Source: Undaria pinnatifida
Taxonomy: Eukaryota > Sar > Phaeophyceae > Laminariales > Alariaceae
Length of the DNA: 64,000 nucleotides
Assembly (NCBI GenBank): GCA_012845835.1
Contig: JABAKD010000028.1
Coordinates: forward strand, 11,375,241-11,439,240
Direction of reading: 5' to 3'
Part shown: positions 34,201 to 60,308 of the stretch, piece by piece
Layout: each line of letters begins with the position of its first letter
Numbering within the stretch: position 1 is the first letter of the stretch
Notes under the pieces: model-generated
The model's database searches: none
Seen by the model: the letters and a program-made list of their open reading frames with translations, nothing else
What the model was told of the DNA's origin: nothing
Program-made: the position numbers and the translations under genes

Positions 34201-34481
34201 AAAGCGTACATAGCCGCCACACCAGCATGGTGCTGAGGAGCCGGCTGTGGTGCCGGTTGCCAGGTGTCTGCGCTGCGCGCGGTCCCGCTTGCGGTCTCTC
34301 TTCTCTCCCTGAGAGACGCGGCGCGATCACAGCGCGAAGCTCGGTGCAATCATCGCCAATCATAATTGTATATCCTTACAAAATCCTTACAAAACTCGTG
34401 TTTCATTTGTTGAATCTGCTGCCTATAAGCCAATCATATCGCTGGATCCTTACAAAAAATTCCCCAGGTATAGGCGCAAAA
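28283..34481. repeat. R1 repeat unit, copy 1 (older, deleted)
   Basis: The unit begins GGCACGGATCC and ends in a linker containing AATTGTATATCCTTAC. The next unit starts directly after it. Compared with copy 2 it has many substitutions and lacks at least two internal blocks: about 350 bp equivalent to 38826-39173 and about 300 bp equivalent to 36738-37033. The first 1.4 kb is A/T-rich and non-coding. Confidence 0.85.
29749..34086 (-). pseudogene. R1 exonuclease-type gene, copy 1
   Basis: Recognisable pieces: a Gly/Ser-rich first exon (34086-33763) ending at a GTGAGT donor; GVNTKSDATYLDEVKAANTV at 32431-32697; YACLDAYASVLVYVEIEIL near 32200-32290; the acidic exon DADSDEGEEDGGDGYDFDAG near 31720-31830; RISRLVKKSHGAFKPSMAWL near 31450-31530; and the C-terminal Cys-rich region to 29749. 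Two exon-sized deletions and altered frames mean it cannot make the full protein. Confidence 0.7.
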
Positions 34482-36139: not shown

Positions 36140-39100
36140 CTAACCTACGACATCAAGATGGGCCGGAGTATCAAGCGACCCTACTGTGCACTGTTCACAA
36201 TCACACCGCGACCACGACCGCTTTCCGTCTGGTCTAATTTTCCCAGTTCTGCAGGCCTCGGGCCGGTGCTTTTCTGGCGGCACATTGCATTGAGGAAGCC
36301 CCCCCCCTCCCACGCGGAGAAGGGTGCGCCTCCTGGTACGTGCCTTCTTGTCGACGGTGGCCGCAGTGAAAGCAGATCTGAGGGCCCCGGGGTGGGCCCT
36401 TGGGCTTCTTCGGCTTCGATTGGGGGGCATCAAACTGCCCAGCCCCATCCCCGCCGCCCCCAAAGTGTAAACATATCTGCAACCCCCGCCGACGCGCCTG
36501 CACCGCCCGGTGCGCCCCCTCCTTCACTGCCGCCACAAACACCACCGCCTGCCCCAGACCGACTCCGCGGAACAGGCGGGGGAACAACGCTACCGACAAC
36601 ACCCTCAAACATCGCCCCCACTTCAGCTTCCTGCAACCTAGCACGCAATGCAGCATGCTGTTTACTGATAGAGCGCATCGTATTCTTAACGTTGGCGTGC
36701 CCTTTGAACTTGTCGTAGTAATTCTGAAGCTGTTGGGCGGTTTTCCGATATACAGGCTCCCATCCCGCCCGGCCAGACTCGATCTTGGCACAGTACTCGT
36801 TCCACTCGATTGCCCACTTATCGAAGTTGACGCGTTGGTGACTCTGAAACCTCCCCATGTCATCGCCTTGGATGAAAAGCTTGTCGTAGACTTCGCTGGC
36901 AAACTTACGTTTCTCTGCTCCATTAGTAACGGGGGCACACGGCATTCCGGAATGCAAGCGCAGCATTCTTGCGTACTGCTTCGCAGAGCGCGTAAGTCGC
37001 GGGAGGGGCACATCGTTCAGGGCCACTGCTGGCTCGTCGACAAGGTCAACCGGCTCCTCTCCCCGAGCGTCAGGTCCCCACAAACTCTGAGAAAGGCCGC
37101 TCCTCTCACCAGTGTCTGCCACGTCAAGCGCAGAAACCCATTCAGGAAACATCGGGCTATCTGGTGACCAGCTGGCCGTGTCGCGTTGGATAATCTCAAA
37201 CTCGAACTGGTCATAGCACGCCCCAATCTCCTTCGGCAGTCCACGGTTCTTCACAGCCATCCTAATATTCCAGCGATGATTGAACTCCAGCAGGATCGAG
37301 TGGGCCAGCGCAGGAGAAGCGCAATAGTAGCCTGCGGAGGTAGCGATGAAAACCCTTTTAAAAAGGACAAACAGTTACAGCAGGCGGAAAACATTTTGAA
37401 CAGGTGTGCACGTCAGGTCCATCATAACGCGAATTACCTGGTTGACCACCAAGCCGAGGAAAAAACTCAACATGTTACAAACACTGCAACAAACGAAACC
37501 GTGCGGTATACTTGACGGCAAATACTATGAGCATCGGGTTATGCCGTGAGGCCAATGGTATGGGTGGAAATGGTTGCTGTACCTGCTAGTGATAGAAAAG
37601 TCACGCAAAACACACACCAAGCCCCTGTACTGCTGGAACCTCTGACACAGCGACGAGTGGTGATCCCCGCTTTACTTTTCCCTGTTGCGTAGTACAGCAG
37701 CACGCCGTCAGGCTTGCTTAGACAACCAGCTTCGATATGCTTGCGGAACAGCTTCACGACCTCCAGTGCTTTCGGGCGCAGGAGAATTTATCCCGATTTC
37801 GCATCGATCACTTCGCAGAACCGATCAATCACTGAACCAAAGCGAGTCAATAATCGTGTCCGCTCGGGCACCAACCGCCGACAATTCCGCAAGAAACACG
37901 TCCAGTTCATCTCTGTATACTCTACAACCTATTCCGGTGCCATTTGTTGCGCGTGAAGAGCACTTTCTACCTGCAGTTGAAAGCGAGATCGGCAGGAGCG
38001 TAATGGTCACGACACATGACCCCAGCACAGGCGTTGTTTTCGACGACAGCAAAAGTCTCTCCGTTATCACTGATCCGAACAACGACACAAGTGACGTCAA
38101 AACCACTTGCCTCCTGGATGGCTTCCAGATTAACGATATAGCAAGCATCTCTCAGCCAAGCCATGGAGGGCTTGAAGGCGCCGTGACTCTTCTTCACCAG
38201 GCGCGAGATACGTGGAAGCGCGTGGAAGGTATCCAGGCGAACCTTGAGCATGTGTGGGCCACCCCCCTGATACAGTTGGGCAACAATCAACATGAATTCA
38301 GAACACTCGAACAGAAAAAAATCGTATACAAAGCGCACATTGACGTCGAGCAGATTTCAGAAACAAACGAAACATATTTGCCACCTCTACAGCACTCACG
38401 CCGTCCTGGTCGACATTGCCACCGATCTCGTCTCCGGCTCCTAGGTCGCAAGCGCGGTCGTGACCAACATCAAAGTCATAACCGTCGCCACCGTCTTCTT
38501 CGCCCTCGTCCGAGTCCACATCATCTAAAAAGAAAAACACCAACGAAAAAGTTTTGTTTGTTTGGCGAGTAATACAAACGTCAGCAAGAAAATGAGGAAC
38601 GCCAATGCGGGCAGGGCGTCACACAACTCAGCTCAATTTGTTCCTAGGACGGGGTGAGGCCTTACCTAGCGAGCCCAGCACGTGGCAAGGTGCTTCGGTA
38701 GCGAAGAAGTCGGCGTCATCATTGTAAGCGGCACTTGCATTCGGGTTCGGCGACGGTGCTGGTGTCGCAGGGGGGGCTGTCCAATCGGCCGCAACGCGAA
38801 CATGGGCAACGTCCCACAGAACAAGCCTGTCACCGCCGCCGCCGCAGATTTCCTTCATCGTCACACGACCCACACCCGCGAAGAAAGGTGCCTCCTTGTG
38901 TGCTGCGTACGTAGCAGGCTTGACCGCGTCGCTCACTTTGACTACGACGCCCTTCTGGCCGCAAGATTGACGTCATTGAGGACGCCACCGAAGCAAGGAT
39001 CCAGCGGTAGTCTCATGGTCCTGTACGTTCCCAACACCAACACAACTGGCATGGTTGTTGCTGTGGAGTCGCACCTAGAGTTCCATCGTAAAATAGACCA

Positions 39101-41097
39101 GGTTTGGGGGATGTTGCCAGGTTTAGTCGCTTGTGATGCGGATGTGCAGTGCATGTTGTTGGTTCAGATGGTGCAAGAAATAAGGCCTCGATGAATATGT
39201 TACAAAACCTCCCAATCGCATCTGTGTTCCCGGCGGCAAAATGGTCGGAACCGGCCCGCGTATGGGATCCTTCAATATCTCGATCTCCACGTAAACGAGA
39301 ACGGACGTGTAAGCATCCAAGCAGGCATACTCTACCCGTGACGGCACCATAAGGATTTTAAAAGGCAGGCATCATTAACATTCCACCTATCAGCAGATTC
39401 AAGAGAAGGCGCCAACAATCAAGCTGGCAACAAGAAACGTTCGATAACCTACAACGAGCGTTAATAGGACACGCGCATAGCTAACTAGAGTAGTATCACC
39501 AGTTGGGCGTTGAGGGGAGAACTCCGGCGAGACAAGCGGGAAGTGGGGTACGTGGGCAACTCTTTCCCAAGGAAACTAGACACTATACCCGCCAGCGAAA
39601 AATATGGCGTTTGCACCCAACAAGCGTTCGCGTGAGTCAGCGCGTCCACAGTGTTCGCGGCTTTGACCTCATCCAAATACGTCGCGTCTGACTTGGTGTT
39701 GACGCCAAGTCTACCATCATGTCCTGGTACCAAATCACGCTGGTTTTTCACCTTGGGAAACGCAAGCGAGAATTTTCGAATTGAATACGCCTAGTGCCAG
39801 CTGCGAACTGCCGAACCAAGAAAACACGACTGCCACAATTGTACCAGGTGCCAGTTATCATGTACCAATCATCGTATGCTCAGAGCTATACATCACGTGT
39901 ACGAGTGTACAAGCTGCGACAGCAAACAAGCTTCAGCAGACGCAATAGCTTCAAAATAGATGGGATAATTAGCCAGGCTGTTATTTACACGAAAATAAGA
40001 AACTCGGGATACGTTATACTGAAGTTAATGTACAATAAGGTAGTGTGCACCCTCTCCCAAATAAGAAAGCCAGCCTAGGTCACTATTTATGTACCTGGTA
40101 TCTTTTAGGTTCCCTGTACTACTGCATCTGGTATCGGGCACACGATATATCAGAGGCCAGGTATGGTATACACTACGTACCAGGTACCTGGTAGGTTCGG
40201 GTAGCAGCGCACAAGCAGCAGGAGCAGTAGCCTACAATGACCTGGTACGACTCGTACCTCGTGTCCAAATAACATTGCCGCAGACCGACTGCTGATGTAC
40301 AGCAGTACAGGGCACGTAAAAATAAACCTGATAATAAGAAAGCCAGGGTGATATTTAGCTACCGGAATAAAAAACTCGTTGGTCAATATACTGAAGTTAC
40401 CTGTGAGAACAAACCCTCTGCAAAATACGAAAGCCAACCTACTGCTGTAGGTCAGTATTTATTTCCGTGCCTCATGATATACCTGGTACAGCAGTACTAC
40501 AGGCGTACAAGACACCTACCTGTAATATTAAAGGTGCAGTAATAAGAAAGCCAAGTTGATATTTTCAGGGAAATAAGAAGCTCGGGAGCTGTTGTACTGA
40601 AGTCAGTGTAGAACGTATCCCCTCACAAATAAGAAAGCCAGCCTACCGCAGGTACCAGGTATGTATGGTTCTTATCTGGTATCCTGTACTGCTTGACCAT
40701 GGTACCAGGTACCAGGTGTAAGAGTACAGCAGCAGGTATCAAACAGAAGTCTACGATAGAACCACTCACATCCGGCCTTGTGTAGCGTAGGTAGAGGGCT
40801 GTAAGGGAACTACCCCATCCGCTTGCTTCCCCCCTTGAAGTGCTTTTGCTGGCTTTGGCAGAAACGTGCTCGTGATCTCGATGAATCGACGATGCCCTGG
40901 TTCGATGCTGTCAAAGTAGATGAAGCTGCACTTTGTTGTGGTTCGCTCTCCCGAGCGGATCCATCACCGCTGCCTTCACCGCTACTTCCATCGCTGCCTC
41001 CACCGTTACGACCTCCGCCGCTGCTGCCTCCAATGCCCACACCGCTGCCTCCGCCATCACTACCCACCTCGTCGCATCGACACATGGCAGGCTCCAA
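36140..41097 (-). pseudogene. R1 gene, copy 2: RNase D/WRN-type 3'-5' exonuclease multidomain
   Basis: Likely exons, minus strand: about 41097-40770 (Gly/Ser-rich), about 39750-39500, from 39329, 38954-38666, 38524-38400, from 38266, about 37850-37590 and about 37332-36140. GVNTKSDATYLDEV fits exonuclease motif II (N-x3-D) and QL+YACLDAYTSVLVY across a splice fits motif III (Y-x3-D). Motif I was not found. Three neighbouring exons join in phase. Later blocks are LDTFHALPRISRLVKKSHGA, GCLSKPDGVLLYYATGKSKA and HSILLEFNHRWNIR, then a C-terminus with CFHCGH and CDCEQC, probably zinc-binding. I recall similar architectures in algal and fungal proteins of unknown role but cannot verify this. In-frame breaks near 37770 and in C/G runs suggest decay. 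Confidence 0.65.
39835..40740. repeat. GGTACC-rich stretch in the R1 gene (copy 2)
   Basis: Dense CAGGTACC, GTACCAGG and CCTGGTA words alternate with AATAAGAAAGCCAGCCTA-type modules. Equivalent stretches are 32780-33720 in copy 1 and 57951-58856 in copy 3. This lies between the Gly/Ser-rich exon and the exonuclease exons, so it is probably intronic. The missing exonuclease motif I would be expected on this side. Confidence 0.7.
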
Positions 41098-41383
41098 GTC
41101 TTGAAGAAACGAAACTAGTCACACCACAACCGCTGCTACAGGGAGGCAGGCTCCTTGGCTCGAGACCACGGAAACAAGCCTGGTGGTCGTAGGCTAGGAG
41201 AACCGCAATTAGACATACTAAAGCGTGCATAGCCGCCACACCAGCATGGTGCTGAGGAGCCGGCTGTGGTGCCGGTTGCCTGGTGTCCGCGCTGCGCGCG
41301 GTCCCGCTTGCGGTCTCTCTTCTCTCCCTGAGAGACGCGGCGCGATCACAGCGCGGAGCTCGGTGCAATCATCGCCAATCATA

Positions 41384-43589
41384 TGGGTACCTAGGATGAC
41401 GTTTTAGGCTGAGGGCTAACGAGAGAGCAGAACGCGGCTGACCATAGCGAAGCGGCGAAACTTAGCCTACTCTGAAAACAGTATAGTAAAGGAACCCTTC
41501 ACCTCTACGCGCCCTTACAAGTTGAAAGAACTTGAAAGGGCTGGGCGTGCTCTACAAAGTTTTTCCATCACGGCACGGTGTTCAGGCACGCCGACGAGTC
41601 CCAACTCCGCGAGCGCGGGGCATGAGAAGTCTCTCCCGGGGACGGCTAGCGATCTTCCCCGAAAGGTAGAGAATCGTAAAAAAAGTGCAAATCCCACCCA
41701 GCTCCTGGCGTACCACAGGACCACAGGTGTATCGCTGCACTGCCGTATTGATACTCTGTATGCTGCCGTTATAGATTGGTCTGTACGTGCTGCTCCACTG
41801 CTGTTGTACTGCTGTTGTATGTACTGCTGTGATGATGGGGTGCGACCGTCCAATTCGCTCCGTACCGTCTCTTTCCGATAGACATGTGCCTGCATTTTTA
41901 TCTCACCGAGTTTGTGTAATCGTACTCGTTGTCTTACCGAGTTCGGGTCCGAGTCCAACCCGTCGCCTAGCGACACCTTCTTCTTTTTCAGTCAACAGGA
42001 GTTGCCTAGCGACACCTCCTTCCTACGGGCACTGCAGCTTGCAGCAAAAGTTTTCTTCATCGTACTCCTGTACCGTATGAGTCTCAGTTACGGTATAAGT
42101 ACCCGTCGACTCGCGGCCGCTATGGATTGGTCGGTACGTGCTGCTCCACTGCTGCTGTTGTACTGCTGTTGTACTACTGCTGTGATGGTGGGGTGCGACC
42201 GTCCAAGTGGCTCCGTACTGTCTTTTTGCCCGTAGACATGTGCCTTCATTTTTGTCCTACCGAGTTCGTGTCGTACTCATTGTCTTTCCGAGGTCGGGTC
42301 CAAGTCCAACCCCTCGCCTAGCGACACCTTCTTTTTTTCCAGTCAACAGGAGTTGCCTAGCGACACCTCCTTCTTACGGGCACTGCAGTTTGCAGCAAAA
42401 AAAGTTCTCTCCACCGTACTCCTATTACCGTAAGAGTCTCAGTTGCGTGCGGTAAAATAACCCATCGACTCGCGGCAGCTTCTCCTTTCGACTATAGTGT
42501 GCTTTTCTAATTTGGCAGTTTTGCGGTATACCCGTCGACTAGCGGCAGCTTCTTCTCCAGAGTGTTGGGCGGTTCTTCAATTTCGCACACCTCCTTCTCA
42601 CGGGTACTGCAGTTTGCAGCAAAAGTTTTCTGCATCGTACTCGTGTACCGTATAAGTCTATATGTCTACGGGCAAAAAGACAGTACGGAGCCACTTGGAC
42701 GGTCGCACCCCACCATCACAGCAGTAGTACAACAGCAGTACAACAGCAGTGGAGCAGCACGTACCGACCAATCCATAGCGGCCGCGAGTCGACGGGTACT
42801 TATACCGTAACTGAGACTCACACGGTACAGGAGTACGATGAAGAAAACTTTTGCTGCAAGCTGCAGTGCCCGTAGGAAGGAGGTGTCGCTAGGCAACTCC
42901 TGTTGACTGAAAAAGAAGAAGGTGTCGCTAGGCGACGGGTTGGACTCGGACCCGAACTCGGTAAGACAAAGAGTACGATTACACAAACTCGGTGAGATAA
43001 AAATGCAGGCACATGTCTATCGGAAAGAGACGGTACGGAGCGAATTGGACGGTCGCACCCCATCATCACAGCAGTACAACAGCAGTACAACAGCAGTGGA
43101 GCAGCACGTACAGACCAATCTATAACGGCAGCATACAGAGTATCAATACGACAGTGCAGCGGTACACCTGTGGTCCTGACGGAGAAAGGGAAGGGAGAGA
43201 GACGGAGGGGAGGGACAGACATCTTCTTTGTGTTGCGAAGTCAAACTTTCCCTGCTGTCAACTGCTGCAGTACCAGTTCCGTTCATTTTTTCGCGTCTGC
43301 TTGCCTTCGTCTTCAATGCGGTTAATGCAACAGAGTGCATTTATTTAATCAATGTTGTTGCCTACTAATATTTTTTTCTTTTTTCAGGAATCACACTAAA
43401 TTCGGGCGTGATGACGTCCCTGTACGTCACCATCAACCACCACAGCGCCACCCTCTTGGTATCCCCCGATACTGTTCAATACCTTACTACAACCATCTCT
43501 ACTTTCATATATCTCCCACCCTCGCCCTCAGACCAGGGCGCCTCTACTTCAGGACGGGGCCGCCCTCAGGCGGCCCCGTCCGATCCTTG
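41384..43589 (+). mobile_element. R2 unit 1 (2.2 kb)
   Basis: Head of about 320 bp, then an inverted pair: arm 41717-42239 and arm 42662-43176, around a spacer of about 420 bp. The tail has a hairpin at 43552-43581. Unit 5 is its near-identical copy at an offset of 6469. Confidence 0.8.
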
Positions 43590-43591
43590 TA

Positions 43592-44296
43592 TGGGTACCT
43601 AGGATGACGTTTTAGGCTGAGGGCTAACGAGAGAGCAGAACGCGGCTGACCAGAGCGAAGCGGCGCAACTTAGCCTACTCTGAAAACAGTATAGTAAAGG
43701 AACCCTTCACCTCTACGCGCCCTTACAAGTTGAAAGAACTTGAAAGGGCTGGGCGTGCTCTACAAAGTTTTTCCATCACGGCACGGTGTTCAGGCACGCC
43801 GACGAGTCCCAACTCCGCGAGCGCGGGGCATGAGAAGTCTCTCCCGGGGACGGCTAGCGATCTTCCCCGAAAGGTAGAGAATCGTAAAAAAAGTGCAAAT
43901 CCCACCCAGCTCACTGCAGCTTGCAGCAAAGGTTTTCTTCATCGTACTCCTGTACCGTATGAGTCTCAGTTACGGTATAAGTACCCGTCGACTCGCGGCC
44001 GCTATGGATTGGTCGGTACGTGCTGCTCCACTGCTGTTGTACTGCTGTTGTACTACTGCTGTGATGGTGGGGTGCGACCGTCCAAGTGGCTCCGTACTGT
44101 CTTTTTGCCCGTAGAGGTACACAGTCCCCTGTACGTGACCACAAACCACTACAGCCTCACCCTCTTGGTATCCCCCGATACAGCTCAATATGTAACAACA
44201 ACCACCTCTACTTTCACATATCTCCCATCCTCGCCCTCAGACCGGGGCGCCTCTACTGGATGACGGGGCCGCCGTTGAGGCGGCCCCGTCCGCTTG
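43592..44296 (+). mobile_element. R2 unit 2 (0.7 kb, internally deleted)
   Basis: It has the same head, then only about 200 bp corresponding to the end of the first inverted arm, then a diverged tail with a hairpin at 44262-44290. It looks like a deletion derivative. Confidence 0.75.
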
Positions 44297-46012
44297 TGGG
44301 TACCTAGGATGACGTTTTAGGCTGAGCGCTAACGAGAGAGCAGAACGCGGCTGACCAGAGCGAAGCGGCGCAACTTAGCCTACTCTGAAAATAGTATAGT
44401 AAAGGAACCCTTCACCTCTACGCGCCCTTACAAGTTGAAAGAACTTGAAAGGGCTGGGCGTGCTCTACAAAGTTTTTCCATCACGGCACGGTGTTCAGGC
44501 ACGCCGACGAGTCCCAACTCCGCGAGCGGGGGGCATGAAAAGCCTCTCCCGGGGACGGCTCGCGCTCTCCCCTGGAAGCTGGAGAATCGTAAGAAAGTGC
44601 AAATCCCACCCAGCTCCTGCCGTACTGCTGTGTGCTGCCGTTGTGGATTGGTCGGTACGTACTGCTCCACTGCTGTTGTACTGCTGTGGTAGTGCCGCCG
44701 CTGCTGCTGCTGCTGCTGCTGCTACTACAGCTGCTGCTCCTGCTGCTGCTCCTGATGCTGACTACTGCGTTTGTTTCTTAAAATAAAAAATCGACTTTCT
44801 GTGGTCATGACCTCGCCTAGCCTGTGCCAGTGCTGTGTGTGCTCCTCCTCCTGCCGGATGGCCGCTGCTGTAGACAGTACTGTAGACACTACAGCTGCTG
44901 TGCCGCAATTCCTTGCTGGGCTATCGCCCGCCTCTGCGCCCGCCGCCGCCGCTGCTGCTGCTACTGCTGTGTGTTGCTGCTGCTGGTGCTGCTTTCACTC
45001 TCTTCTGTGCATGTTCCAAAACTTTTCCGCCTTTTCTTGTGTTGTTTTTATAACCATGTACCACGCAGCTTGCAAAGTTGAGTTTCAACCATTCAATCGG
45101 TCGTACTCAGAGCTGATGTTTTACACATTCATTTATAGAATCATGTTTTTTTGTGAAGTGTAGCTGCTGTGCTGCTGCTGCCGCTGCTGTTGGTGTCTCC
45201 GGTGAGTACGTTTCGAATAATGAAAAATCAGCTGTCTGCGGTCTTGAGCTCGCGGAGCCAGTGTGTGTGCCCCCTCCCCCTTGCCAGACGACTGCTACTG
45301 TAGACACTACTGCTGCTGTGCCGCACTTCCTCGATGGGCCATCGGCCACCTCTACCCCCGCCGCTGCTGCTGCTAAAAGAAATGAATGGTCTGCCTTCCG
45401 GCGTAGATTTGCATTTTTCGCGTACCTTGGTGCCATGGACTTGGTCTGATTGCTCTAATGAACGTTGTGTTTCTTTCCTGCAGTTAAGTTGGTCTGATTG
45501 CTCTAATGAACGTTGTGTTTCTTTCCTGCAGTTGCGATAGGATTTTTCCACTTGATAAACATACGGAATTCGTCTCCCATTCTTCAGCGCTCGCGGCGCA
45601 TGCCATGCCGTCCGAATCCTTCTCCGGATTCAGCCAAGGTCTGGCTACTACCTTTGCCAATTGAGCTTTCCTTATATATTACGTTTCAGCCACGGTTTAT
45701 TTATTTTTTCAACCGCTGTTTTCTTTCTATTTTTTTCCCGTCTATTTCTCGCCTATCCACAACCTCCTTATTTGGGTTTTGTTTCGTATTTTCAATTCCT
45801 CTATGCAGTGCACCGACACCTACCTTCACAAACGCTGCGCGCAAAACCACTCCCGACAAAACCCACCATTTTTAATGACATATGTTTCAAATACATGTAG
45901 CACCTCAACCTCTTGGTACCGTCCATTACCTTCCCCTTCTCTCAGTCACATCCTTTTTGCGCAACTGTTTCGGAGGGCGGGGCCGCCGATAGGCGACCCC
46001 GCCCAATCCTTG
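44297..46012 (+). mobile_element. R2 unit 3 (1.7 kb, CTG-rich interior)
   Basis: It has the common head, but the interior differs: a CTG/CTC-rich stretch at 44690-44765, a diverged internal duplication (44790-44980 against 45220-45390) and a 48-bp tandem duplication at 45441-45536. Its hairpin is at 45975-46004. It ends CCTTG directly against a headless unit. Confidence 0.75.
45441..45536. repeat. 48-bp tandem duplication carrying splice-acceptor-like ends
   Basis: Two copies at 45441-45488 and 45489-45536, each containing TTTCTTTCCTGCAG, a strong acceptor-like polypyrimidine-CAG. Whether it is used is unknown. Confidence 0.85.
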
Positions 46013-47852
46013 ATACTCTGTATGCTGCCGTTATAGATTGGTCTGTACGTGCTGCTCCACTGCTGTTGTACTGCTGTTGTATGTACTGCTGTGATGATGG
46101 GGTGCGACCGTCCAATTCGCTCCGTACCGTCTCTTTCCGATAGACATGTGCCTGCATTTTTATCTCACCGAGTTTGTGTAATCGTACTCGTTGTCTTACC
46201 GAGTTCGGGTCCGAGTCCAACCCGTCGCCTAGCGACACCTTCTTCTTTTTCAGTCAACAGGAGTTGCCTAGCGACACCTCCTTCCTACGGGCACTGCAGC
46301 TTGCAGCAAAAGTTTTCTTCATCGTACTCCTGTACCGTATGAGTCTCAGTTACGGTATAAGTACCCGTCGACTCGCGGCCGCTATGGATTGGTCGGTACG
46401 TGCTGCTCCACTGCTGCTGTTGTACTGCTGTTGTACTACTGCTGTGATGGTGGGGTGCGACCGTCCAAGTGGCTCCGTACTGTCTTTTTGCCCGTAGACA
46501 TGTGCCTTCATTTTTGTCCTACCGAGTTCGTGTCGTACTCATTGTCTTTCCGAGGTCGGGTCCAAGTCCAACCCCTCGCCTAGCGACACCTTCTTTTTTT
46601 CCAGTCAACAGGAGTTGCCTAGCGACACCTCCTTCTTACGGGCACTGCAGTTTGCAGCAAAAAAAGTTCTCTCCACCGTACTCCTATTACCGTAAGAGTC
46701 TCAGTTGCGTGCGGTAAAATAACCCATCGACTCGCGGCAGCTTCTCCTTTCGACTATAGTGTGCTTTTCTAATTTGGCAGTTTTGCGGTATACCCGTCGA
46801 CTAGCGGCAGCTTCTTCTCCAGAGTGTTGGGCGGTTCTTCAATTTCGCACACCTCCTTCTCACGGGTACTGCAGTTTGCAGCAAAAGTTTTCTGCATCGT
46901 ACTCGTGTACCGTATAAGTCTATATGTCTACGGGCAAAAAGACAGTACGGAGCCACTTGGACGGTCGCACCCCACCATCACAGCAGTAGTACAACAGCAG
47001 TACAACAGCAGTGGAGCAGCACGTACCGACCAATCCATAGCGGCCGCGAGTCGACGGGTACTTATACCGTAACTGAGACTCACACGGTACAGGAGTACGA
47101 TGAAGAAAACTTTTGCTGCAAGCTGCAGTGCCCGTAGGAAGGAGGTGTCGCTAGGCAACTCCTGTTGACTGAAAAAAAAAGAAGGTGTCGCTAGGCGACG
47201 GGTTGGACTCGGACCCGAACTCGGTAAGACAAAGAGTACGATTACACAAACTCGGTGAGATAAAAATGCAGGCACATGTCTATCGGAAAGAGACGGTACG
47301 GAGCGAATTGGACGGTCGCACCCCATCATCACAGCAGTACAACAGCAGTACAACAGCAGTGGAGCAGCACGTACAGACCAATCTATAACGGCAGCATACA
47401 GAGTATCAATACGACAGTGCAGCGGTACACCTGTGGTCCTGACGGAGAAAGGGAAGGGAGAGAGACGGAGGGGAGGGACAGACATCTTCTTTGTGTTGCG
47501 AAGTCAAACTTTCCCTGCTGTCAACTGCTGCAGTACCAGTTCCGTTCATTTTTTCGCGTCTGCTTGCCTTCGTCTTCAATGCGGTTAATGCAACAGAGTG
47601 CATTTATTTAATCAATGTTGTTGCCTACTAATATTTTTTTCTTTTTTCAGGAATCACACTAAATTCGGGCGTGATGACGTCCCTGTACGTCACCATCAAC
47701 CACCACAGCGCCACCCTCTTGGTATCCCCCGATACTGTTCAATACCTTACTACAACCATCTCTACTTTCATATATCTCCCACCCTCGCCCTCAGACCAGG
47801 GCGCCTCTACTTCAGGACGGGGCCGCCCTCAGGCGGCCCCGTCCGATCCTTG
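46013..47852 (+). mobile_element. R2 unit 4 (headless)
   Basis: It starts inside the first inverted arm, at the position equivalent to 41751 of unit 1, directly after the CCTTG of unit 3. From there it matches unit 1 to the tail hairpin at 47815-47844, with one extra base in an A-run. Confidence 0.8.
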
Positions 47853-50058
47853 TGGGTACCTAGGATGACGTTTTAGGCTGAGGGCTAACGAGAGAGCAGA
47901 ACGCGGCTGACCATAGCGAAGCGGCGAAACTTAGCCTACTCTGAAAATAGTATAGTAAAGGAACCCTTCACCTCTACGCGCCCTTACAAGTTGAAAGAAC
48001 TTGAAAGGGCTGGGCGTGCTCTACAAAGTTTTTCCATCACGGCACGGTGTTCAGGCACGCCGACGAGTCCCAACTCCGCGAGCGCGGGGCATGAGAAGTC
48101 TCTCCCGGGGACGGCTAGCGATCTTCCCCGAAAGGTAGAGAATCGTAAAAAAAGTGCAAATCCCACCCAGCTCCTGGCGTACCACAGGACCACAGGTGTA
48201 TCGCTGCACTGCCGTATTGATACTCTGTATGCTGCCGTTATAGATTGGTCTGTACGTGCTGCTCCACTGCTGTTGTACTGCTGTTGTATGTACTGCTGTG
48301 ATGATGGGGTGCGACCGTCCAATTCGCTCCGTACCGTCTCTTTCCGATAGACATGTGCCTGCATTTTTATCTCACCGAGTTTGTGTAATCGTACTCGTTG
48401 TCTTACCGAGTTCGGGTCCGAGTCCAACCCGTCGCCTAGCGACACCTTCTTCTTTTTCAGTCAACAGGAGTTGCCTAGCGACACCTCCTTCCTACGGGCA
48501 CTGCAGCTTGCAGCAAAAGTTTTCTTCATCGTACTCCTGTACCGTATGAGTCTCAGTTACGGTATAAGTACCCGTCGACTCGCGGCCGCTATGGATTGGT
48601 CGGTACGTGCTGCTCCACTGCTGCTGTTGTACTGCTGTTGTACTACTGCTGTGATGGTGGGGTGCGACCGTCCAAGTGGCTCCGTACTGTCTTTTTGCCC
48701 GTAGACATGTGCCTTCATTTTTGTCCTACCGAGTTCGTGTCGTACTCATTGTCTTTCCGAGGTCGGGTCCAAGTCCAACCCCTCGCCTAGCGACACCTTC
48801 TTTTTTTCCAGTCAACAGGAGTTGCCTAGCGACACCTCCTTCTTACGGGCACTGCAGTTTGCAGCAAAAAAAGTTCTCTCCACCGTACTCCTATTACCGT
48901 AAGAGTCTCAGTTGCGTGCGGTAAAATAACCCATCGACTCGCGGCAGCTTCTCCTTTCGACTATAGTGTGCTTTTCTAATTTGGCAGTTTTGCGGTATAC
49001 CCGTCGACTAGCGGCAGCTTCTTCTCCAGAGTGTTGGGCGGTTCTTCAATTTCGCACACCTCCTTCTCACGGGTACTGCAGTTTGCAGCAAAAGTTTTCT
49101 GCATCGTACTCGTGTACCGTATAAGTCTATATGTCTACGGGCAAAAAGACAGTACGGAGCCACTTGGACGGTCGCACCCCACCATCACAGCAGTAGTACA
49201 ACAGCAGTACAACAGCAGTGGAGCAGCACGTACCGACCAATCCATAGCGGCCGCGAGTCGACGGGTACTTATACCGTAACTGAGACTCACACGGTACAGG
49301 AGTACGATGAAGAAAACTTTTGCTGCAAGCTGCAGTGCCCGTAGGAAGGAGGTGTCGCTAGGCAACTCCTGTTGACTGAAAAAGAAGAAGGTGTCGCTAG
49401 GCGACGGGTTGGACTCGGACCCGAACTCGGTAAGACAAAGAGTACGATTACACAAACTCGGTGAGATAAAAATGCAGGCACATGTCTATCGGAAAGAGAC
49501 GGTACGGAGCGAATTGGACGGTCGCACCCCATCATCACAGCAGTACAACAGCAGTACAACAGCAGTGGAGCAGCACGTACAGACCAATCTATAACGGCAG
49601 CATACAGAGTATCAATACGACAGTGCAGCGGTACACCTGTGGTCCTGACGGAGAAAGGGAAGGGAGAGAGACGGAGGGGAGGGACAGACATCTTCTTTGT
49701 GTTGCGAAGTCAAACTTTCCCTGCTGTCAACTGCTGCAGTACCAGTTCCGTTCATTTTTTCGCGTCTGCTTGCCTTCGTCTTCAATGCGGTTAATGCAAC
49801 AGAGTGCATTTATTTAATCAATGTTGTTGCCTACTAATATTTTTTTCTTTTTTCAGGAATCACACTAAATTCGGGCGTGATGACGTCCCTGTACGTCACC
49901 ATCAACCACCACAGCGCCACCCTCTTGGTATCCCCCGATACTGTTCAATACCTTACTACAACCATCTCTACTTTCATATATCTCCCACCCTCGCCCTCAG
50001 ACCAGGGCGCCTCTACTTCAGGACGGGGCCGCCCTCAGGCGGCCCCGTCCGATCCTTG
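47853..50058 (+). mobile_element. R2 unit 5 (2.2 kb)
   Basis: Near-identical to unit 1 without length change. Inverted arms at about 48186-48708 and 49131-49645; hairpin at 50021-50050. Confidence 0.8.
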
Positions 50059-50060
50059 TA

Positions 50061-52470
50061 TGGGTACCTAGGATGACGTTTTAGGCTGAGGGCTAACGAG
50101 AGAGCAGAACGCGGCTGACCAGAGCGAAGCGGCGAAACTTAGCCTACTCTGAAAATAGTATAGTAAAGGAACCCTTCACCTCTACGCGCCCTTACAAGTT
50201 GAAATAACTTGAAAGGGCTGGGCGTGCTCTACAAAGTTTTTCCATCACGGCACGGTGTTCAGGCACGCCGACGAGTCCCAACTCTGCGAGCGCGGGGCAT
50301 GAGAAGTCTCTCCCGGGGACGGCTAGCGATCTTCCCCGAAAGGTAGAGAATCGTAAAAAAAGTGCAAATCCCACCCAGCTCCTGGCGTACCACAGGACAC
50401 AGGACCACAGGTGTACCGCTGCACTGCCGTATTGATACTCTGTATGCTGCCGTTATAGATTGGTCTGTACGTGCTGCTCCACTGCTGTTGTACTGCTGTT
50501 GTACTGCTGTGATGATGGGGTGCGACCGTCCAATTTGCTCCGTACCGTCTCTTTCCGATAGACATGTGCCTGCATTTTTATCTCACCAAGTTTGTGTAAT
50601 CGTACTCTTTGTCTTACCGAGTTCGGGTCCGAGTCCAACCCGTCGCCTAGCGACACCTTCTTCTTTTTCAGTCAACAGGAGTTGCCTAGCGACACCTCCT
50701 TCTTACGGGCACTGCAGCTTGCAGCAAAAGTTTTCTTCATCGTACTCCTGTACCGTATGAGTCTCAGTTACGGTATAAGTACCCGTCGACTCGCGGCCGC
50801 TATGGATTGGTCGGTACGTGCTGCTCCACTGCTGTTGTACTGCTGTTGTACTACTGCTGTGATGGTGGGGTGCGACCGTCCAAGTGGCTCCGTACTGTCT
50901 TTGCCCGTAGACATGTGCCTTCATTTTTGTCCCACCGAGTTCGTGTCGTACGCTTTGTCTTACCGAGGTCGGGTCCAAGTCCAACCCCTCGCCTAGCGAC
51001 ACCTTCTTTTTTTCCAGTCAACAGGAGTTGCCTAGCGACACCTCCTTCTTACGGGCACTGCAGTTTGCAGCAAAAGTTTTCTCCACCGTACTCCTATTAC
51101 CGTATGAGTCTCAGTTGCGTGCGGTATAATAACCCATCGACTCGCGGCAGCTTCTCCTTTCGACTATAGTGTGTTTTTCTAATTTGGCAGTTTTGCGGTA
51201 TACCCGTCGACTAGCGGCAGCTTCTTCTCCAGAGTGTTGGGCGGTTCTTCAATTTCGCAGCCGACAAGAGTTGCCTATAGCTCCAGCTTCTATTGAATAA
51301 GGCTATGTACTGCATATGAAACCGGTTGCAACTTCTGAGTGCCTTTCGCTGTTCCGTACGAGTCTCGGTTTCGGTAGACTATACCCCGTCGCCTAGCGGC
51401 ACCTTCTTCCATGTATTAGGTTGATCCTTAGTATGACGGGCGACCGTCCAAGTCGCTCCGTACCGTCTCTTTCCCGTAGATATGTGCCTGCATGTTTGTC
51501 TTACCGAGTTCGTGTCGTAGTCTTTGTCTTACCGAGATCGGGTCGAAGTCCACCCCGTCGCCTAGCGACACCTTCTTCTTTTTCAGTCAACGGGAGTTGC
51601 CTAGCGACACCTCCTTCTCACGGGTACTGCAGTTTGCAGCAAAAGTTTTCTGCATCGTACTCGTGTACCGTATGAGTCTCAGTTACGGTATAAGTACCCG
51701 TCGATTCGCGGCAGCTTCTCCTTCCAAGGATTGGGTGCCTTTCTAATTTGGCAGTTTTGCGGTATACCCGTCGACTAGCGGCAGCTTCTTCTTCAGAATG
51801 TTGGGTGGTTCTTCAATTTCGCAGCCGACAAGAGTTGCCTAGCGCCAGCTTCTATTTTAGGTCATGTACTGCATATGAAACCGGTTGCAACTTCTGAGCG
51901 CCTTCCGCTGTTCCGCACGAGTCTCGGTTGCGGTAGAATATACCCCGTCGCCTAGCGGCACCTTCTTCTTGCATGTATTAGGTTGATCCTTACAGTAGTA
52001 TCGCGGGCGACCGTCCAACTTGCTCCGTACCGTTTCTCACCCGTAGACATGAGGGTTCGGGTCGACGTCCACTCCGTCGCCTAGCGACACCTTCTTTTTT
52101 GTCAGTCAACAGGAGTTGCCTAGCGAGACCTCCTTCTTACGTGCACTGTAGCTTGCAGCAAAAGTTTTTGCGCTTGCAGAAAAAAGTGTTGGTTTTCTTT
52201 ATGATTGACCTTCTTTAATACATGTTTTTTCAACTTTTGGAGACGACTCCGTCTCCTGCCGGCGTGCCATCCTTCCGAGGTTTGCCCGCTTCGTCAGCAC
52301 CCGCCGACATAGTTCTCTTCCAAAATATCATCTTCTCCGACACAAATTGCACATCAACCTCTTGGTAGGAGTCATTACTTTTCACCTTTCTTTACTCTCC
52401 TCTTCCTCACACCATCTTTAATAACAATCATGAGGGTGGGGCCGCCGAAGGCGGCGCCGCCCGATCCTTG
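50061..52470 (+). mobile_element. R2 unit 6 (2.4 kb, tandem modules)
   Basis: It has the common head and the first arm. In place of the second arm it has repeated modules of about 280 bp (near 50520, 50875, 51435 and a weak one at 52005), each with GTCGCCTAGCGACACCTTC and TTGCCTAGCGACACCTCC. The tail hairpin is at 52434-52462, then CCTTG and the R1 linker. Confidence 0.75.
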
Positions 52471-52597
52471 TAATTGTATATCCTTACAAAATCCTTACAA
52501 AACTGGTGTTTCATTTGTTGAATTTGCTGCCTATAAGCCAATCATATCGCTGGATCCTTACAAAAAATTCCCCAGGTATAGACCTACTATTATGGAA
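52471..52597. repeat. R1 linker with a truncated terminal-repeat remnant
   Basis: It resumes the R1 sequence interrupted at 41383 (AATTGTATATCC...CCAGGTATA). At 52581-52596 it carries GACCTACTATTATGGA, the first 16 bp of the element at 59608, before the next R1 unit. Confidence 0.85.
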
Positions 52598-55500
52598 GGC
52601 ACGGATCCCATACATAGGGACACTTTCGTAAGGCATTAAAATAATCGCGCGAAGCGCGAAAAAAATTTGGAGGCGTTTTGGAACATGGTAAAACATCATA
52701 AAAAAAATCGCGCATGCCTCCCTCTCATAAGAATGGGGCTCACGCAAGGTTGTTGCGGAGAAATAAGAACTTCGGTAATTTTTATACCGAAATTAGTGTG
52801 GGGTTGCCCACAGCATTTTGCAATTCTCAAAAAAATACAAAATTCAGCCTAAAGCCGAAACCTCGGTTTCTTATCAGAGGGCCGGCGGCACAATAATACT
52901 CGTAAAGTAGTACAGGACGTACGAATGGCAGGCTGATACTTCCAGAAAGACAAGAAATCCGGAAGCTGAAGTTAGTGCAGATAACACCCTCGCCAAAATA
53001 AGAAACCCGCAGGATTCCTGTTTCTCGCTGTCAATAATAATAATAGGTACCTGATAGGTGTAGTAGTGCAGATAGCTTATTATAGGTACAACGCTGTTCA
53101 TACAGTAGAAGTAATGAAACAGGAAAAAGAGGAAGAAACCGGAATAATTCTGGCCGAGGCTGAAGTTCTTATTTGAGAAAGGGTGAGTTCTACACACTAT
53201 CTTCAGCACAGGGGCTTCCGATTTTCTTATTAAGTATCAGGCTTGTGCTTACCAGGTATCTGTTTTTTTTTTCTGTTGTATCGCATAAAAGAAATGTAAA
53301 ACGACGGCAAGCAGTGTAACAACCGGCCGCAAAGCACAGCAGCAGTGACTTTTTCATACCAGGTACGCTTGTGATACATGTATTATTGTATATTATGTTG
53401 CCGTTGCTAATACTCAAATACAACGCGTTTTTTTGGGTTGAACTCCTTTGTGGCGTATATCGAATGAAGTGGGCGTGCCGGTGACAATATTTGAAGACTG
53501 GGAAGTGATGCATGAGGCTCCGCCAAAAATAGACGACACGAACACCCCAAAAAATAGGACCCGTGTAACAGCAGTTTACTCCACTTCAACCAGATGATGT
53601 TTTTGATCATTCTTCCTTCTTTCAATAGACCAATACAGATTATACTGCAGACTCTTGCGTGGTGAGTTCTTGACACTGAACGGTTCTTGCCCCCCGGCCA
53701 CGTCCAGCATACGTACCGCGCCGATGCTTCACCCTAGCTAGAAGATATCAGCTCTCTCTGTGTTCATAAACTACTAAGTACATACGAGACAGGAAATCGA
53801 AACCGTAAATATTAGAATAGCCTACGCAACGCAAACGCACAGAAAAACTAAACGATACACAAATCAGAAAACTCGGAGGAAACAAGAAAGCAACATCAAG
53901 AAAGCAGAAAATAAAATAAAAACGGAGAAGGAAGACAAAGAAAGGGCAGGGGGAGGGGTAGCTACGATTAGGGTGCCAGATAACCCTCCCCCCTTCTCCC
54001 CTCCCTCCTCGGGACAGAAAAAAGGAAGCAGGGGAAAGGAAAAACAAATCAAAACCGGGTCATGCCTTATTTCGTCGACAACGGTGTAGTATCTAGCGTA
54101 GTATCTAGCTCGTAGTATCGCTGTGAGCTCCCCCCCCCCAGTGCCACACAAAACGAACCGACCGGCTCGCGAACAAAGAAAAACAAAAATGAAACTCGAA
54201 CGGTCTACCCTCTGTGAACTGATAAAACGCAAAACTCGACGCGAGACTGCAGACGCTAACCTACGACATCAAGATGGGCCGGAGTATCAAGCGACCCTAC
54301 TGTGCACTGTTCACAATCACACCGCGACCACGACCGCTTTCCGTCTGGTCTAATTTTCCCAGTTCTGCAGGCCTCGGGCCGGTGCTTTTCTGGCGGCACA
54401 TTGCATTGAGGAAGCCCCCCCCCTCCCACGCGGAGAAGGGTGCGCCTCCTGGTACGTGCCTTCTTGTCGACGGTGGCCGCAGTGAAAGCAGATCTGAGGG
54501 CCCCGGGGTGGGCCCTTGGGCTTCTTCGGCTTCGATTGGGGGGCATCAAACTGCCCAGCCCCATCCCCGCCGCCCCCAAAGTGTAAACATATCTGCAACC
54601 CCCGCCGACGCGCCTGCACCGCCCGGTGCGCCCCCTCCTTCACTGCCGCCACAAACACCACCGCCTGCCCCAGACCGACTCCGCGGAACAGGCGGGGGAA
54701 CAACGCTACCGACAACACCCTCAAACATCGCCCCCACTTCAGCTTCCTGCAACCTAGCACGCAATGCAGCATGCTGTTTACTGATAGAGCGCATCGTATT
54801 CTTAACGTTGGCGTGCCCTTTGAACTTGTCGTAGTAATTCTGAAGCTGTTGGGCGGTTTTCCGATATACAGGCTCCCATCCCGCCCGGCCAGACTCGATC
54901 TTGGCACAGTACTCGTTCCACTCGATTGCCCACTTATCGAAGTTGACGCGTTGGTGACTCTGAAACCTCCCCATGTCATCGCCTTGGATGAAAAGCTTGT
55001 CGTAGACTTCGCTGGCAAACTTACGTTTCTCTGCTCCATTAGTAACGGGGGCACACGGCATTCCGGAATGCAAGCGCAGCATTCTTGCGTACTGCTTCGC
55101 AGAGCGCGTAAGTCGCGGGAGGGGCACATCGTTCAGGGCCACTGCTGGCTCGTCGACAAGGTCAACCGGCTCCTCTCCCCGAGCGTCAGGTCCCCACAAA
55201 CTCTGAGAAAGGCCGCTCCTCTCACCAGTGTCTGCCACGTCAAGCGCAGAAACCCATTCAGGAAACATCGGGCTATCTGGTGACCAGCTGGCCGTGTCGC
55301 GTTGGATAATCTCAAACTCGAACTGGTCATAGCACGCCCCAATCTCCTTCGGCAGTCCACGGTTCTTCACAGCCATCCTAATATTCCAGCGATGATTGAA
55401 CTCCAGCAGGATCGAGTGGGCCAGCGCAGGAGAAGCGCAATAGTAGCCTGCGGAGGTAGCGATGAAAACCCTTTTAAAAAGGACAAACAGTTACAGCAGG

Positions 55501-58500
55501 CGGAAAACATTTTGAACAGGTGTGCACGTCAGGTCCATCATAACGCGAATTACCTGGTTGACCACCAAGCCGAGGAAAAAACTCAACATGTTACAAACAC
55601 TGCAACAAACGAAACCGTGCGGTATACTTGACGGCAAATACTATGAGCATCGGGTTATGCCGTGAGGCCAATGGTATGGGTGGAAATGGTTGCTGTACCT
55701 GCTAGTGATAGAAAAGTCACGCAAAACACACACCAAGCCCCTGTACTGCTGGAACCTCTGACACAGCGACGAGTGGTGATCCCCGCTTTACTTTTCCCTG
55801 TTGCGTAGTACAGCAGCACGCCGTCAGGCTTGCTTAGACAACCAGCTTCGATATGCTTGCGGAACAGCTTCACGACCTCCAGTGCTTTCGGGCGCAGGAG
55901 AATTTATCCCGATTTCGCATCGATCACTTCGCAGAACCGATCAATCACTGAACCAAAGCGAGTCAATAATCGTGTCCGCTCGGGCACCAACCGCCGACAA
56001 TTCCGCAAGAAACACGTCCAGTTCATCTCTGTATACTCTACAACCTATTCCGGTGCCATTTGTTGCGCGTGAAGAGCACTTTCTACCTGCAGTTGAAAGC
56101 GAGATCGGCAGGAGCGTAATGGTCACGACACATGACCCCAGCACAGGCGTTGTTTTCGACGACAGCAAAAGTCTCTCCGTTATCACTGATCCGAACAACG
56201 ACACAAGTGACGTCAAAACCACTTGCCTCCTGGATGGCTTCCAGATTAACGATATAGCAAGCATCTCTCAGCCAAGCCATGGAGGGCTTGAAGGCGCCGT
56301 GACTCTTCTTCACCAGGCGCGAGATACGTGGAAGCGCGTGGAAGGTATCCAGGCGAACCTTGAGCATGTGTGGGCCACCCCCCTGATACAGTTGGGCAAC
56401 AATCAACATGAATTCAGAACACTCGAACAGAAAAAAATCGTATACAAAGCGCACATTGACGTCGAGCAGATTTCAGAAACAAACGAAACATATTTGCCAC
56501 CTCTACAGCACTCACGCCGTCCTGGTCGACATTGCCACCGATCTCGTCTCCGGCTCCTAGGTCGCAAGCGCGGTCGTGACCAACATCAAAGTCATAACCG
56601 TCGCCACCGTCTTCTTCGCCCTCGTCCGAGTCCACATCATCTAAAAAGAAAAACACCAACGAAAAAGTTTTGTTTGTTTGGCGAGTAATACAAACGTCAG
56701 CAAGAAAATGAGGAACGCCAATGCGGGCAGGGCGTCACACAACTCAGCTCAATTTGTTCCTAGGACGGGGTGAGGCCTTACCTAGCGAGCCCAGCACGTG
56801 GCAAGGTGCTTCGGTAGCGAAGAAGTCGGCGTCATCATTGTAAGCGGCACTTGCATTCGGGTTCGGCGACGGTGCTGGTGTCGCAGGGGGGGCTGTCCAA
56901 TCGGCCGCAACGCGAACATGGGCAACGTCCCACAGAACAAGCCTGTCACCGCCGCCGCCGCAGATTTCCTTCATCGTCACACGACCCACACCCGCGAAGA
57001 AAGGTGCCTCCTTGTGTGCTGCGTACGTAGCAGGCTTGACCGCGTCGCTCACTTTGACTACGACGCCCTTCTGGCCGCAAGATTGACGTCATTGAGGACG
57101 CCACCGAAGCAAGGATCCAGCGGTAGTCTCATGGTCCTGTACGTTCCCAACACCAACACAACTGGCATGGTTGTTGCTGTGGAGTCGCACCTAGAGTTCC
57201 ATCGTAAAATAGACCAGGTTTGGGGGATGTTGCCAGGTTTAGTCGCTTGTGATGCGGATGTGCAGTGCATGTTGTTGGTTCAGATGGTGCAAGAAATAAG
57301 GCCTCGATGAATATGTTACAAAACCTCCCAATCGCATCTGTGTTCCCGGCGGCAAAATGGTCGGAACCGGCCCGCGTATGGGATCCTTCAATATCTCGAT
57401 CTCCACGTAAACGAGAACGGACGTGTAAGCATCCAAGCAGGCATACTCTACCCGTGACGGCACCATAAGGATTTTAAAAGGCAGGCATCATTAACATTCC
57501 ACCTATCAGCAGATTCAAGAGAAGGCGCCAACAATCAAGCTGGCAACAAGAAACGTTCGATAACCTACAACGAGCGTTAATAGGACACGCGCATAGCTAA
57601 CTAGAGTAGTATCACCAGTTGGGCGTTGAGGGGAGAACTCCGGCGAGACAAGCGGGAAGTGGGGTACGTGGGCAACTCTTTCCCAAGGAAACTAGACACT
57701 ATACCCGCCAGCGAAAAATATGGCGTTTGCACCCAACAAGCGTTCGCGTGAGTCAGCGCGTCCACAGTGTTCGCGGCTTTGACCTCATCCAAATACGTCG
57801 CGTCTGACTTGGTGTTGACGCCAAGTCTACCATCATGTCCTGGTACCAAATCACGCTGGTTTTTCACCTTGGGAAACGCAAGCGAGAATTTTCGAATTGA
57901 ATACGCCTAGTGCCAGCTGCGAACTGCCGAACCAAGAAAACACGACTGCCACAATTGTACCAGGTGCCAGTTATCATGTACCAATCATCGTATGCTCAGA
58001 GCTATACATCACGTGTACGAGTGTACAAGCTGCGACAGCAAACAAGCTTCAGCAGACGCAATAGCTTCAAAATAGATGGGATAATTAGCCAGGCTGTTAT
58101 TTACACGAAAATAAGAAACTCGGGATACGTTATACTGAAGTTAATGTACAATAAGGTAGTGTGCACCCTCTCCCAAATAAGAAAGCCAGCCTAGGTCACT
58201 ATTTATGTACCTGGTATCTTTTAGGTTCCCTGTACTACTGCATCTGGTATCGGGCACACGATATATCAGAGGCCAGGTATGGTATACACTACGTACCAGG
58301 TACCTGGTAGGTTCGGGTAGCAGCGCACAAGCAGCAGGAGCAGTAGCCTACAATGACCTGGTACGACTCGTACCTCGTGTCCAAATAACATTGCCGCAGA
58401 CCGACTGCTGATGTACAGCAGTACAGGGCACGTAAAAATAAACCTGATAATAAGAAAGCCAGGGTGATATTTAGCTACCGGAATAAAAAACTCGTTGGTC

Positions 58501-59607
58501 AATATACTGAAGTTACCTGTGAGAACAAACCCTCTGCAAAATACGAAAGCCAACCTACTGCTGTAGGTCAGTATTTATTTCCGTGCCTCATGATATACCT
58601 GGTACAGCAGTACTACAGGCGTACAAGACACCTACCTGTAATATTAAAGGTGCAGTAATAAGAAAGCCAAGTTGATATTTTCAGGGAAATAAGAAGCTCG
58701 GGAGCTGTTGTACTGAAGTCAGTGTAGAACGTATCCCCTCACAAATAAGAAAGCCAGCCTACCGCAGGTACCAGGTATGTATGGTTCTTATCTGGTATCC
58801 TGTACTGCTTGACCATGGTACCAGGTACCAGGTGTAAGAGTACAGCAGCAGGTATCAAACAGAAGTCTACGATAGAACCACTCACATCCGGCCTTGTGTA
58901 GCGTAGGTAGAGGGCTGTAAGGGAACTACCCCATCCGCTTGCTTCCCCCCTTGAAGTGCTTTTGCTGGCTTTGGCAGAAACGTGCTCGTGATCTCGATGA
59001 ATCGACGATGCCCTGGTTCGATGCTGTCAAAGTAGATGAAGCTGCACTTTGTTGTGGTTCGCTCTCCCGAGCGGATCCATCACCGCTGCCTTCACCGCTA
59101 CTTCCATCGCTGCCTCCACCGTTACGACCTCCGCCGCTGCTGCCTCCAATGCCCACACCGCTGCCTCCGCCATCACTACCCACCTCGTCGCATCGACACA
59201 TGGCAGGCTCCAAGTCTTGAAGAAACGAAACTAGTCACACCACAACCGCTGCTACAGGGAGGCAGGCTCCTTGGCTCGAGACCACGGAAACAAGCCTGGT
59301 GGTCGTAGGCTAGGAGAACCGCAATTAGACATACTAAAGCGTGCATAGCCGCCACACCAGCATGGTGCTGAGGAGCCGGCTGTGGTGCCGGTTGCCTGGT
59401 GTCCGCGCTGCGCGCGGTCCCGCTTGCGGTCTCTCTTCTCTCCCTGAGAGACGCGGCGCGATCACAGCGCGGAGCTCGGTGCAATCATCGCCAATCATAA
59501 TTGTATATCCTTACAAAATCCTTACAAAACTGGTGTTTCATTTGTTGAATTTGCTGCCTATAAGCCAATCATATCGCTGGATCCTTACAAAAAATTCCCC
59601 AGGTATA
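52598..59607. repeat. R1 repeat unit, copy 3
   Basis: Matches copy 2 at a constant offset of 18116 bp. The right end is not interrupted by R2, so its linker is intact up to the ATA at 59605-59607. Confidence 0.9.
54256..59213 (-). pseudogene. R1 gene, copy 3: 3'-5' exonuclease-type multidomain
   Basis: Carries the same exons and the same disturbed frames as copy 2, shifted by 18116 bp: the exonuclease motif II exon near 57616-57866, motif III from about 57445, the acidic exon near 56516-56640, RISRLVKKSHGAFKPSMAWL near 56270-56360, and a long last exon from about 55448 to 54256. Since the breaks are shared, they predate the duplication that gave copies 2 and 3. Function is unknown beyond the exonuclease fold. 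Confidence 0.65.
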
Positions 59608-60299: not shown

Positions 60300-60308
60300 A
60301 TAGGCGCC

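Follow-up and report, generated by a model that had tools for sequence, protein, structure and literature searches.

Head-to-tail hairpin-ended units in the brown alga Undaria pinnatifida: probable non-autonomous Helitrons with off-consensus ends

What kind of element forms a head-to-tail array of hairpin-ended units without a recognisable gene of their own? The question is raised by a locus in the brown alga Undaria pinnatifida. The window analysed here is a stretch of 64,000 nucleotides (GenBank assembly GCA_012845835.1, contig JABAKD010000028.1; C35:11375241-11439240) containing six such units, which an initial annotation, made from the letters alone, had proposed as perhaps a new rolling-circle-like family. 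With a probability of about 0.94 the units are non-autonomous Helitrons whose ends are shared by an autonomous relative, the source of the Rep/HUH-helicase that would mobilise them. The enzyme would nick at A^TATGGG (the caret marks a point of cleavage, insertion or joining), peel off one strand, halt at the 3′ hairpin and cut after CTTG; the copy would be inserted between the A and the T of a target with no bases duplicated. Arrays would grow when later copies land at the A^T bordering a resident on its 5′ side, or through insertion of joined-end or multimeric intermediates. The ends, the copies that carry the enzyme between those ends, the A^T insertion without duplication and the recurrence of composite units are seen directly. 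We infer this strand chemistry, as we do the movement of the units by the 1721-amino acid protein described below and the way in which each join formed.

A map of heads and tails, with the left border set by empty sites, places the array at 41382-52470, with all six units (U1 to U6, Table 1) head-to-tail; excluding the 5′ TA their sizes are 2206, 705, 1716, 1840, 2206 and 2410 bp. U1, U2 and U6 start with TATGGGTACC and U3 and U5 with TGGGTACC, a head common to five of the six. U4 is truncated and corresponds to the U1 type without its first 367 bp, with TTG as a 3-base match at the U3/U4 join; U5 differs from U1 by a single mismatch over 2206 bp. Every tail consists of a hairpin-forming GC-rich stretch followed by CTTG. 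Four of the six tails (U1, U2, U3 and U6) were folded as single-stranded DNA, each against 200 shuffles, and outdid nearly all of these; the core stem lies 8 nt from the 3′ end in U1, U3 and U6 and 6 nt from it in U2. Terminal inverted repeats beyond chance were not found, the shuffles scoring as well numbering 66 of 500 for U1, 415 for U2, 499 for U3 and 493 for U6. Joins without TA (CTTG^TGGG) occur at 44296/44297 and 47852/47853, and joins with it (CTTG^TA^TGGG) after 43589 and after 50058. The longest open reading frame (ORF) of the array has 185 amino acids, and a Pfam search with 10 of its 24 ORFs of at least 100 amino acids gave nothing above the cut-off and one sub-threshold match, to FANCE (E 0.0016); as far as the ORFs examined go, the units encode no recognisable protein. 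The initial annotation had described six head-to-tail units with a start absent only in unit 4, a stem-loop before the final CTTG, both kinds of join and no encoded protein, and all of this was borne out, the last within the ORFs examined. Of the limits it gave, 41384-52470, the right one stands; the left one moves to 41382, as the empty sites described below require. The 2206-bp units also contain a long internal inverted repeat (41716-42239 against 42662-43178, 524 aligned bases, 97.9%), which is carried by U4 and U5 as well.

The enzyme missing from the units is found elsewhere between the same ends. The genome searched (511,146,479 bases in 68 contigs) holds at least 154 matches to Helitron_like_N. 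Two of these, at C19:10722135 and C29:3205561, are followed after about 4.4 kb by the tail seen in the array. The loci concerned (L060 and L061, on C19 and C29) are 8.7 and 8.6 kb long, run from TATGGGTACC to CTTG and have borders like those of the array units. Relative to U1, identity is 93-94% in their heads (508 aligned bp) and 96.6% in their tails (about 415 bp). Between the two copies, which occupy different sites with different flanks, it is 99.96% over 7348 bp. Each carries one unbroken ORF of 1721 amino acids, whose product contains Helitron_like_N (E 1e-37), PIF1 (E 8e-55), Pif1 2B and OTU (E 6e-8) domains and matches Helraiser (7lcc) in a phmmer search of the L060 protein over residues 177-1531 (E 7.3e-150). 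It has an HUH motif, GYPHAH, at 599, a paired-tyrosine motif, KYLFKY, at 753 and a Walker A motif, GTGKS, at 1108; the first two we take to be catalytic, from the Helraiser alignment and from what is generally known of Helitrons. No DDE transposase is present between the ends of these two long copies, and a Replitron, considered as a candidate, was dropped once the Rep-helicase (RepHel) had been found. L060 and L061 thus appear to be the autonomous partner of the array units, apparently intact.

Exact 30-bp heads occur 114 times in the genome and exact tails of hairpin plus CTTGT 85 times, against none of either for reversed-pattern controls, so that the array is no chance assembly. Full-length 2206-bp units were found at 12 other loci, and because these are 99.6-99.9% identical to U1 the 2206-bp type appears to have moved recently. 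The head and tail counts include contig C63 (67,350 bases; L009, L038 and L039), which is 100% identical to the window over two stretches of 6776 and 9101 bp spanning the array and the DNA to its right. Its left part differs, with 99.6% identity to 34482-41059 and 23 gaps, and farther left 98.7% identity to 57497-62476; C63 may be a second haplotype, an assembly duplicate or a true duplication. Border counts were made on the loci retrieved, without C63, whose three loci carry an array matching the window, and without L001-L008, which overlap loci retrieved later. On this basis the outer 5′ flanks end in TA in 61 of 61 cases (56 ATA, 3 GTA, 2 TTA). The outer 3′ flanks start with T in 58 of 59 (52 TA, 3 TT, 3 TC), the exception being the join of U3 to the truncated U4, although part of this 3′ set was picked by a pattern requiring CTTGT and the tail patterns themselves demanded CTTG. 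Hairpin plus CTTG followed by any base other than T occurs nowhere in the genome, against 85 cases of CTTGT. For 48 insertions with both flanks, including L014 and L015, which share flanks, the base at -1 is A in 43 and the base at +1 is T in all 48.

Empty sites fix the ends. Surrounding the array is host DNA repeated in tandem with a period of about 7.0 kb (33164-62476), in which 34363-41383 and 52471-59499 are 99.8% identical and 33164-34364 (96.5%) and 60320-62476 (98.9%) are partial copies. Two neighbouring joints of this repeat read CAATCATAATTG, and the array-bearing site reads CAATCATA[...]TAATTG. From empty to filled site the number of TAs rises from one to two, which fits duplication of a TA target and an element that itself starts with TA alike. 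For C24 the search gave 2002 candidates at first look and 40 listed places, of which 39 agree with the joined flanks at 99-100% and continue beyond the joint for 13 or 18 bases; the one of these 39 that was read gives GTATA^TCG. The C35 trimer has one paralogous empty site, at 84%, reading GGCATA^TCTG. At the C22 array a tandem copy in its own flank, alike in 39 of 43 bases, reads CGTAA^TTGAA; a second tandem copy there, CGTGAATTT, lacks AAT at that place, and only the nearer match was aligned. In all three the empty site is obtained only by cutting out TATGGG...CTTG, and since their right flanks begin with TC or TT, the extra TA on the left side cannot be a target duplication. Duplication of TA, which had initially fitted the empty sites of the window, is ruled out by these sites. 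Together with L030, L035, C28:403764 and C32:30819923, whose joined flanks were compared with the retrieved loci, clean joints are available for eight insertions, the window array counting once with its two sites. On balance, the element reads 5′-TATGGG...CTTG-3′ and enters its target between A and T, duplicating no bases. Of the TAs seen at the two borders, the left one forms the first two bases of the element and the right one reflects a target preference; the array therefore starts at 41382.

Several observations weigh against this account. The termini are off the canonical ones of Helitron1 (5′-TC and 3′-CTRR): the elements start with TATGGG, that is with 5′-TA, or TG if the TA is not counted, and end in CTTG, as sharp borders and empty sites establish, and the family is therefore not filed under Helitron1. 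The interiors of the units are unlike those of the autonomous copies, so the units are not simple internal deletions of them. Of the 48 insertions whose joined flanks were compared with the retrieved loci, 7 had a match across the joint, four of them clean. L022, with a TT target, fits an empty site, but its flanks have low complexity; C30:7654142, situated within a simple repeat, is uninformative; the four paralogs of L020 are short of some 6-13 bases there and give no exact fit. At L017:584-955, where a 370-bp head fragment is interrupted at an internal GATA by a complete copy, the nested head carries one additional TA that the A^T rule does not account for; the far end of this nested insertion was looked for and not found. 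Finally, CTTG is followed within 0-4 bases by a head at 37 places, 22 with no spacer, 15 with TA and none with any other spacing. Once C63 is set aside, such joins are present on 11 contigs; 20 have no spacer and 13 have TA (one of the latter, on C31, without a hairpin before CTTG). The 20 lack the TA seen at all 61 outer 5′ borders, and the empty site of the C35 trimer has no compensating extra TA. Simple serial insertion of full TATGGG elements therefore fails for the joins without TA. Serial insertion at TA^TGGG was also rejected as their source, as it predicts an extra 5′ TA that the C35 trimer does not have.

How, then, do the arrays grow? Insertion into the A^T at which a resident copy begins would be expected to leave a join reading CTTG^TATGGG. 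Among the loci compared, a 705-bp unit is directly followed by a 1668-1716-bp unit at 8 places, the window included, and genome-wide the tail of the 705 type is followed by TG at 16 of 28 places (15 without C63). Joins without TA also occur in arrays of like-sized units on C27 (spacing 2202-2206) and C35 (spacing 1688), and between the 2410-bp and 2206-bp types at L022. The recurrent 705/1716 composite suggests that movement can run on through an internal end, something described for Helraiser (PMC4778049). That the whole window array is a rolling-circle concatemer from one event is a rather doubtful alternative: U1, U4 and U5 are nearly identical, the C27 and C35 arrays repeat like-sized units through joins without TA, and joined-end circles are known for Helraiser (PMC4778049), but four unit types and both kinds of join occur together in the window, and the composite, being present at 8 places, was probably moved in ready-made. 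Growth by unequal exchange between copies in the host, like that of the surrounding 7-kb repeat, is improbable. The locus does lie inside that tandem repeat, which suggests such exchange there, and U4 is truncated at a 3-base match; yet exchange cannot create exact CTTG^TATGGG joins between unlike unit types unless the joins pre-exist, and joins are spread over 11 contigs besides C63.

The targets favour A^TA with another TA 7-9 bases farther on. Among 48 sites, 42 have this further TA beginning between +7 and +9, where the background taken from positions 40-139 of these flanks is 17.9%. Local A+T richness explains part of the excess, since +3, +5 and +6 are enriched in TA too. The element's own start, TATGGGTA, has TA at +7, and the enzyme may read its own 5′ end and the target alike. 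One tentative and rather unlikely extension would have RepHel reading A^TA plus a second TA some 7-9 bases on, both in the target and at its own A^TATGGGTA, which would make resident copies preferred landing sites and let arrays arise by self-targeting, a second, offset nick (TA^TGGG) giving the joins without TA.

As to class, the family has those features of the Helitron superfamily that were examined: a single protein that unites Rep/HUH with a PIF1-type helicase and is encoded between shared ends (two copies), a hairpin just upstream of the 3′ end (in the four tails folded), no terminal inverted repeats beyond chance and, as in Helitron1, A^T insertion without target-site duplication. Features of Helitron2/Helentron, namely asymmetric terminal inverted repeats and T-rich (TT) insertion, were not found. 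An undescribed rolling-circle class distinct from Helitrons is very improbable: CTTG and the 5′ TA do depart from the textbook consensus and some joins lack TA, but RepHel with HUH, paired tyrosines and PIF1, the 3′ hairpin and the mode of insertion are those of Helitrons, for which CTTG ends are in print. Least probable of all, to the point of near dismissal, is a DDE family that moves by cut and paste and duplicates a TA target (Tc1/mariner-like, or another miniature inverted-repeat transposable element that inserts at TA), which would account for TA at 52 of 59 outer 3′ and 61 of 61 outer 5′ borders and for one TA in the empty site of the window against two in the filled one, but not for the lack of terminal inverted repeats beyond chance, 3′ flanks of TT or TC alongside 5′ TA, empty sites (GTATA^TCG, GGCATA^TC, CGTAA^TTG) with no TA there to duplicate or RepHel rather than DDE in the two same-ended long copies. 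The units belong to an ordinary kind of element whose ends are slightly unusual; both CTTG ends and head-to-tail Helitrons are already published. The initial annotation's reading of the array as rolling-circle (Helitron-type), non-autonomous and fixed in its borders is supported. An autonomous copy, consistent borders and empty sites, the evidence it had called for, have been found, and neither kind of counter-evidence that it named has appeared: the borders do not vary in position, and no DDE transposase lies between the ends of the two long copies, nor are there inverted repeats beyond chance. Its remark that CTTG and the border TA do not fit the textbook class holds for canonical Helitron1; CTTG has precedent, and the TA resolves into the element's own 5′ TA and the T(A) of the target. 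Of its undescribed non-autonomous family, non-autonomous stands; an undescribed class is not needed, A^T insertion without duplication being the Helitron rule.

Among known systems, HELPO2 of Pleurotus ostreatus (PMC4289320) shares A^T insertion, a CTTG 3′ end, a subterminal hairpin and Rep plus helicase in one ORF. A T[C/G] 5′ end is given there for both HELPO families and is counted here as a further likeness. The host is a different one, the TA preceding the TGGG start moves with the element in Undaria, and the two are likened by description, not by sequence. Helraiser/Helibat1 of bats (PMC4778049) has a RepHel alignable over 1355 residues, A^T insertion and a 3′ hairpin. Its circles show precise head-to-tail junctions, and CTTG ends occur in some insertions of end-deleted Helraiser vectors (maize is cited there too), both of which resemble what is seen here. 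Its canonical ends are 5′-TC and CTAG-3′, and the Undaria ORF is longer (1721 against 1496 amino acids) and has an OTU domain. In maize, adjacent Helitrons are joined directly tail to head, which has been explained by insertion at a host A and a resident T (PMC2267711, where rolling-circle repeats proposed for bat Helitrons are also mentioned). The maize pair consists of two unlike elements, in contrast to the six here, several of them near-identical and with two types of join. Helitron2/Helentron elements such as FoHeli of Fusarium (PMC5148889) are likewise RepHel rolling-circle elements with joined-end intermediates, but have asymmetric terminal inverted repeats and preferences for TT, TTTT^T/C and TNAT^, none of which was seen here. 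Helitrons, in 13 families, have been reported in the brown alga Ectocarpus (PMC12477816), and AT insertion and circles in an active family of wheat (PMC13286980).

Other observations concern neighbouring or related sequences. A second, apparently young Helitron family (G000) has 34 places among the matches listed with an open 1713-amino acid frame and near-equal scores (for example C26:17901559 and C25:5940275); in the 3′ stretches of two copies the likeness stops at ACATACCGAGTA beside a repeated stretch. A few bases before two insertions stand other GC-rich stretches (L017:540-585 and L096) that finish in CCTTG^T, perhaps the 3′ ends of another, related Helitron family. The window also contains short tandem arrays at 7274-7774 (167 bp x 3, 99%) and 10502-10829 (110 bp x 3, 95%).

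Table 1. Units, 3′ hairpins and paralogous empty sites in the window (positions within the 64,000 nucleotides).
Feature	Position	Strand	Description
U1	41382..43589	+	Probable non-autonomous Helitron, 2206-bp type plus own 5′ TA; placed by map and empty-site border
U2	43590..44296	+	705-bp type plus own 5′ TA; first half of recurrent 705/1716 composite
U3	44297..46012	+	1716-bp type; joined to U2 without TA (CTTG^TGGG)
U4	46013..47852	+	1840 bp; 5′-truncated 2206-bp type, begins at base 368 of the type
U5	47853..50058	+	2206-bp type; TA-less join at its start
U6	50059..52470	+	2410-bp type plus own 5′ TA
U1 3′ hairpin	43552..43581	+	-20.7 kcal/mol; 0/200 shuffles as good; 8 nt before CTTG end
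U2 3′ hairpin	44262..44290	+	-18.7 kcal/mol; 0/200 shuffles as good
U3 3′ hairpin (core stem)	45975..46004	+	-17.3 kcal/mol; 0/200 shuffles as good
U4 3′ hairpin	47815..47844	+	Letters identical to U1 hairpin
U5 3′ hairpin	50021..50050	+	Letters identical to U1 hairpin
U6 3′ hairpin	52434..52462	+	-15.6 kcal/mol; 2/200 shuffles as good
Paralogous empty site	34355..34373	+	GCCAATCATAATTG; in neighbouring copy of 7-kb host repeat
Second paralogous empty site	59490..59508	+	At a joint of the 7-kb host repeat

The family offers a clean worked case: an apparently intact autonomous Helitron stands beside non-autonomous relatives, and ends that depart from the consensus are placed to the base by empty sites. 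It would probably escape Helitron finders built to require TC...CTRR. The two types of join, with 0 or 2 spacer bases, provide a handle on how tandem arrays of Helitrons form.

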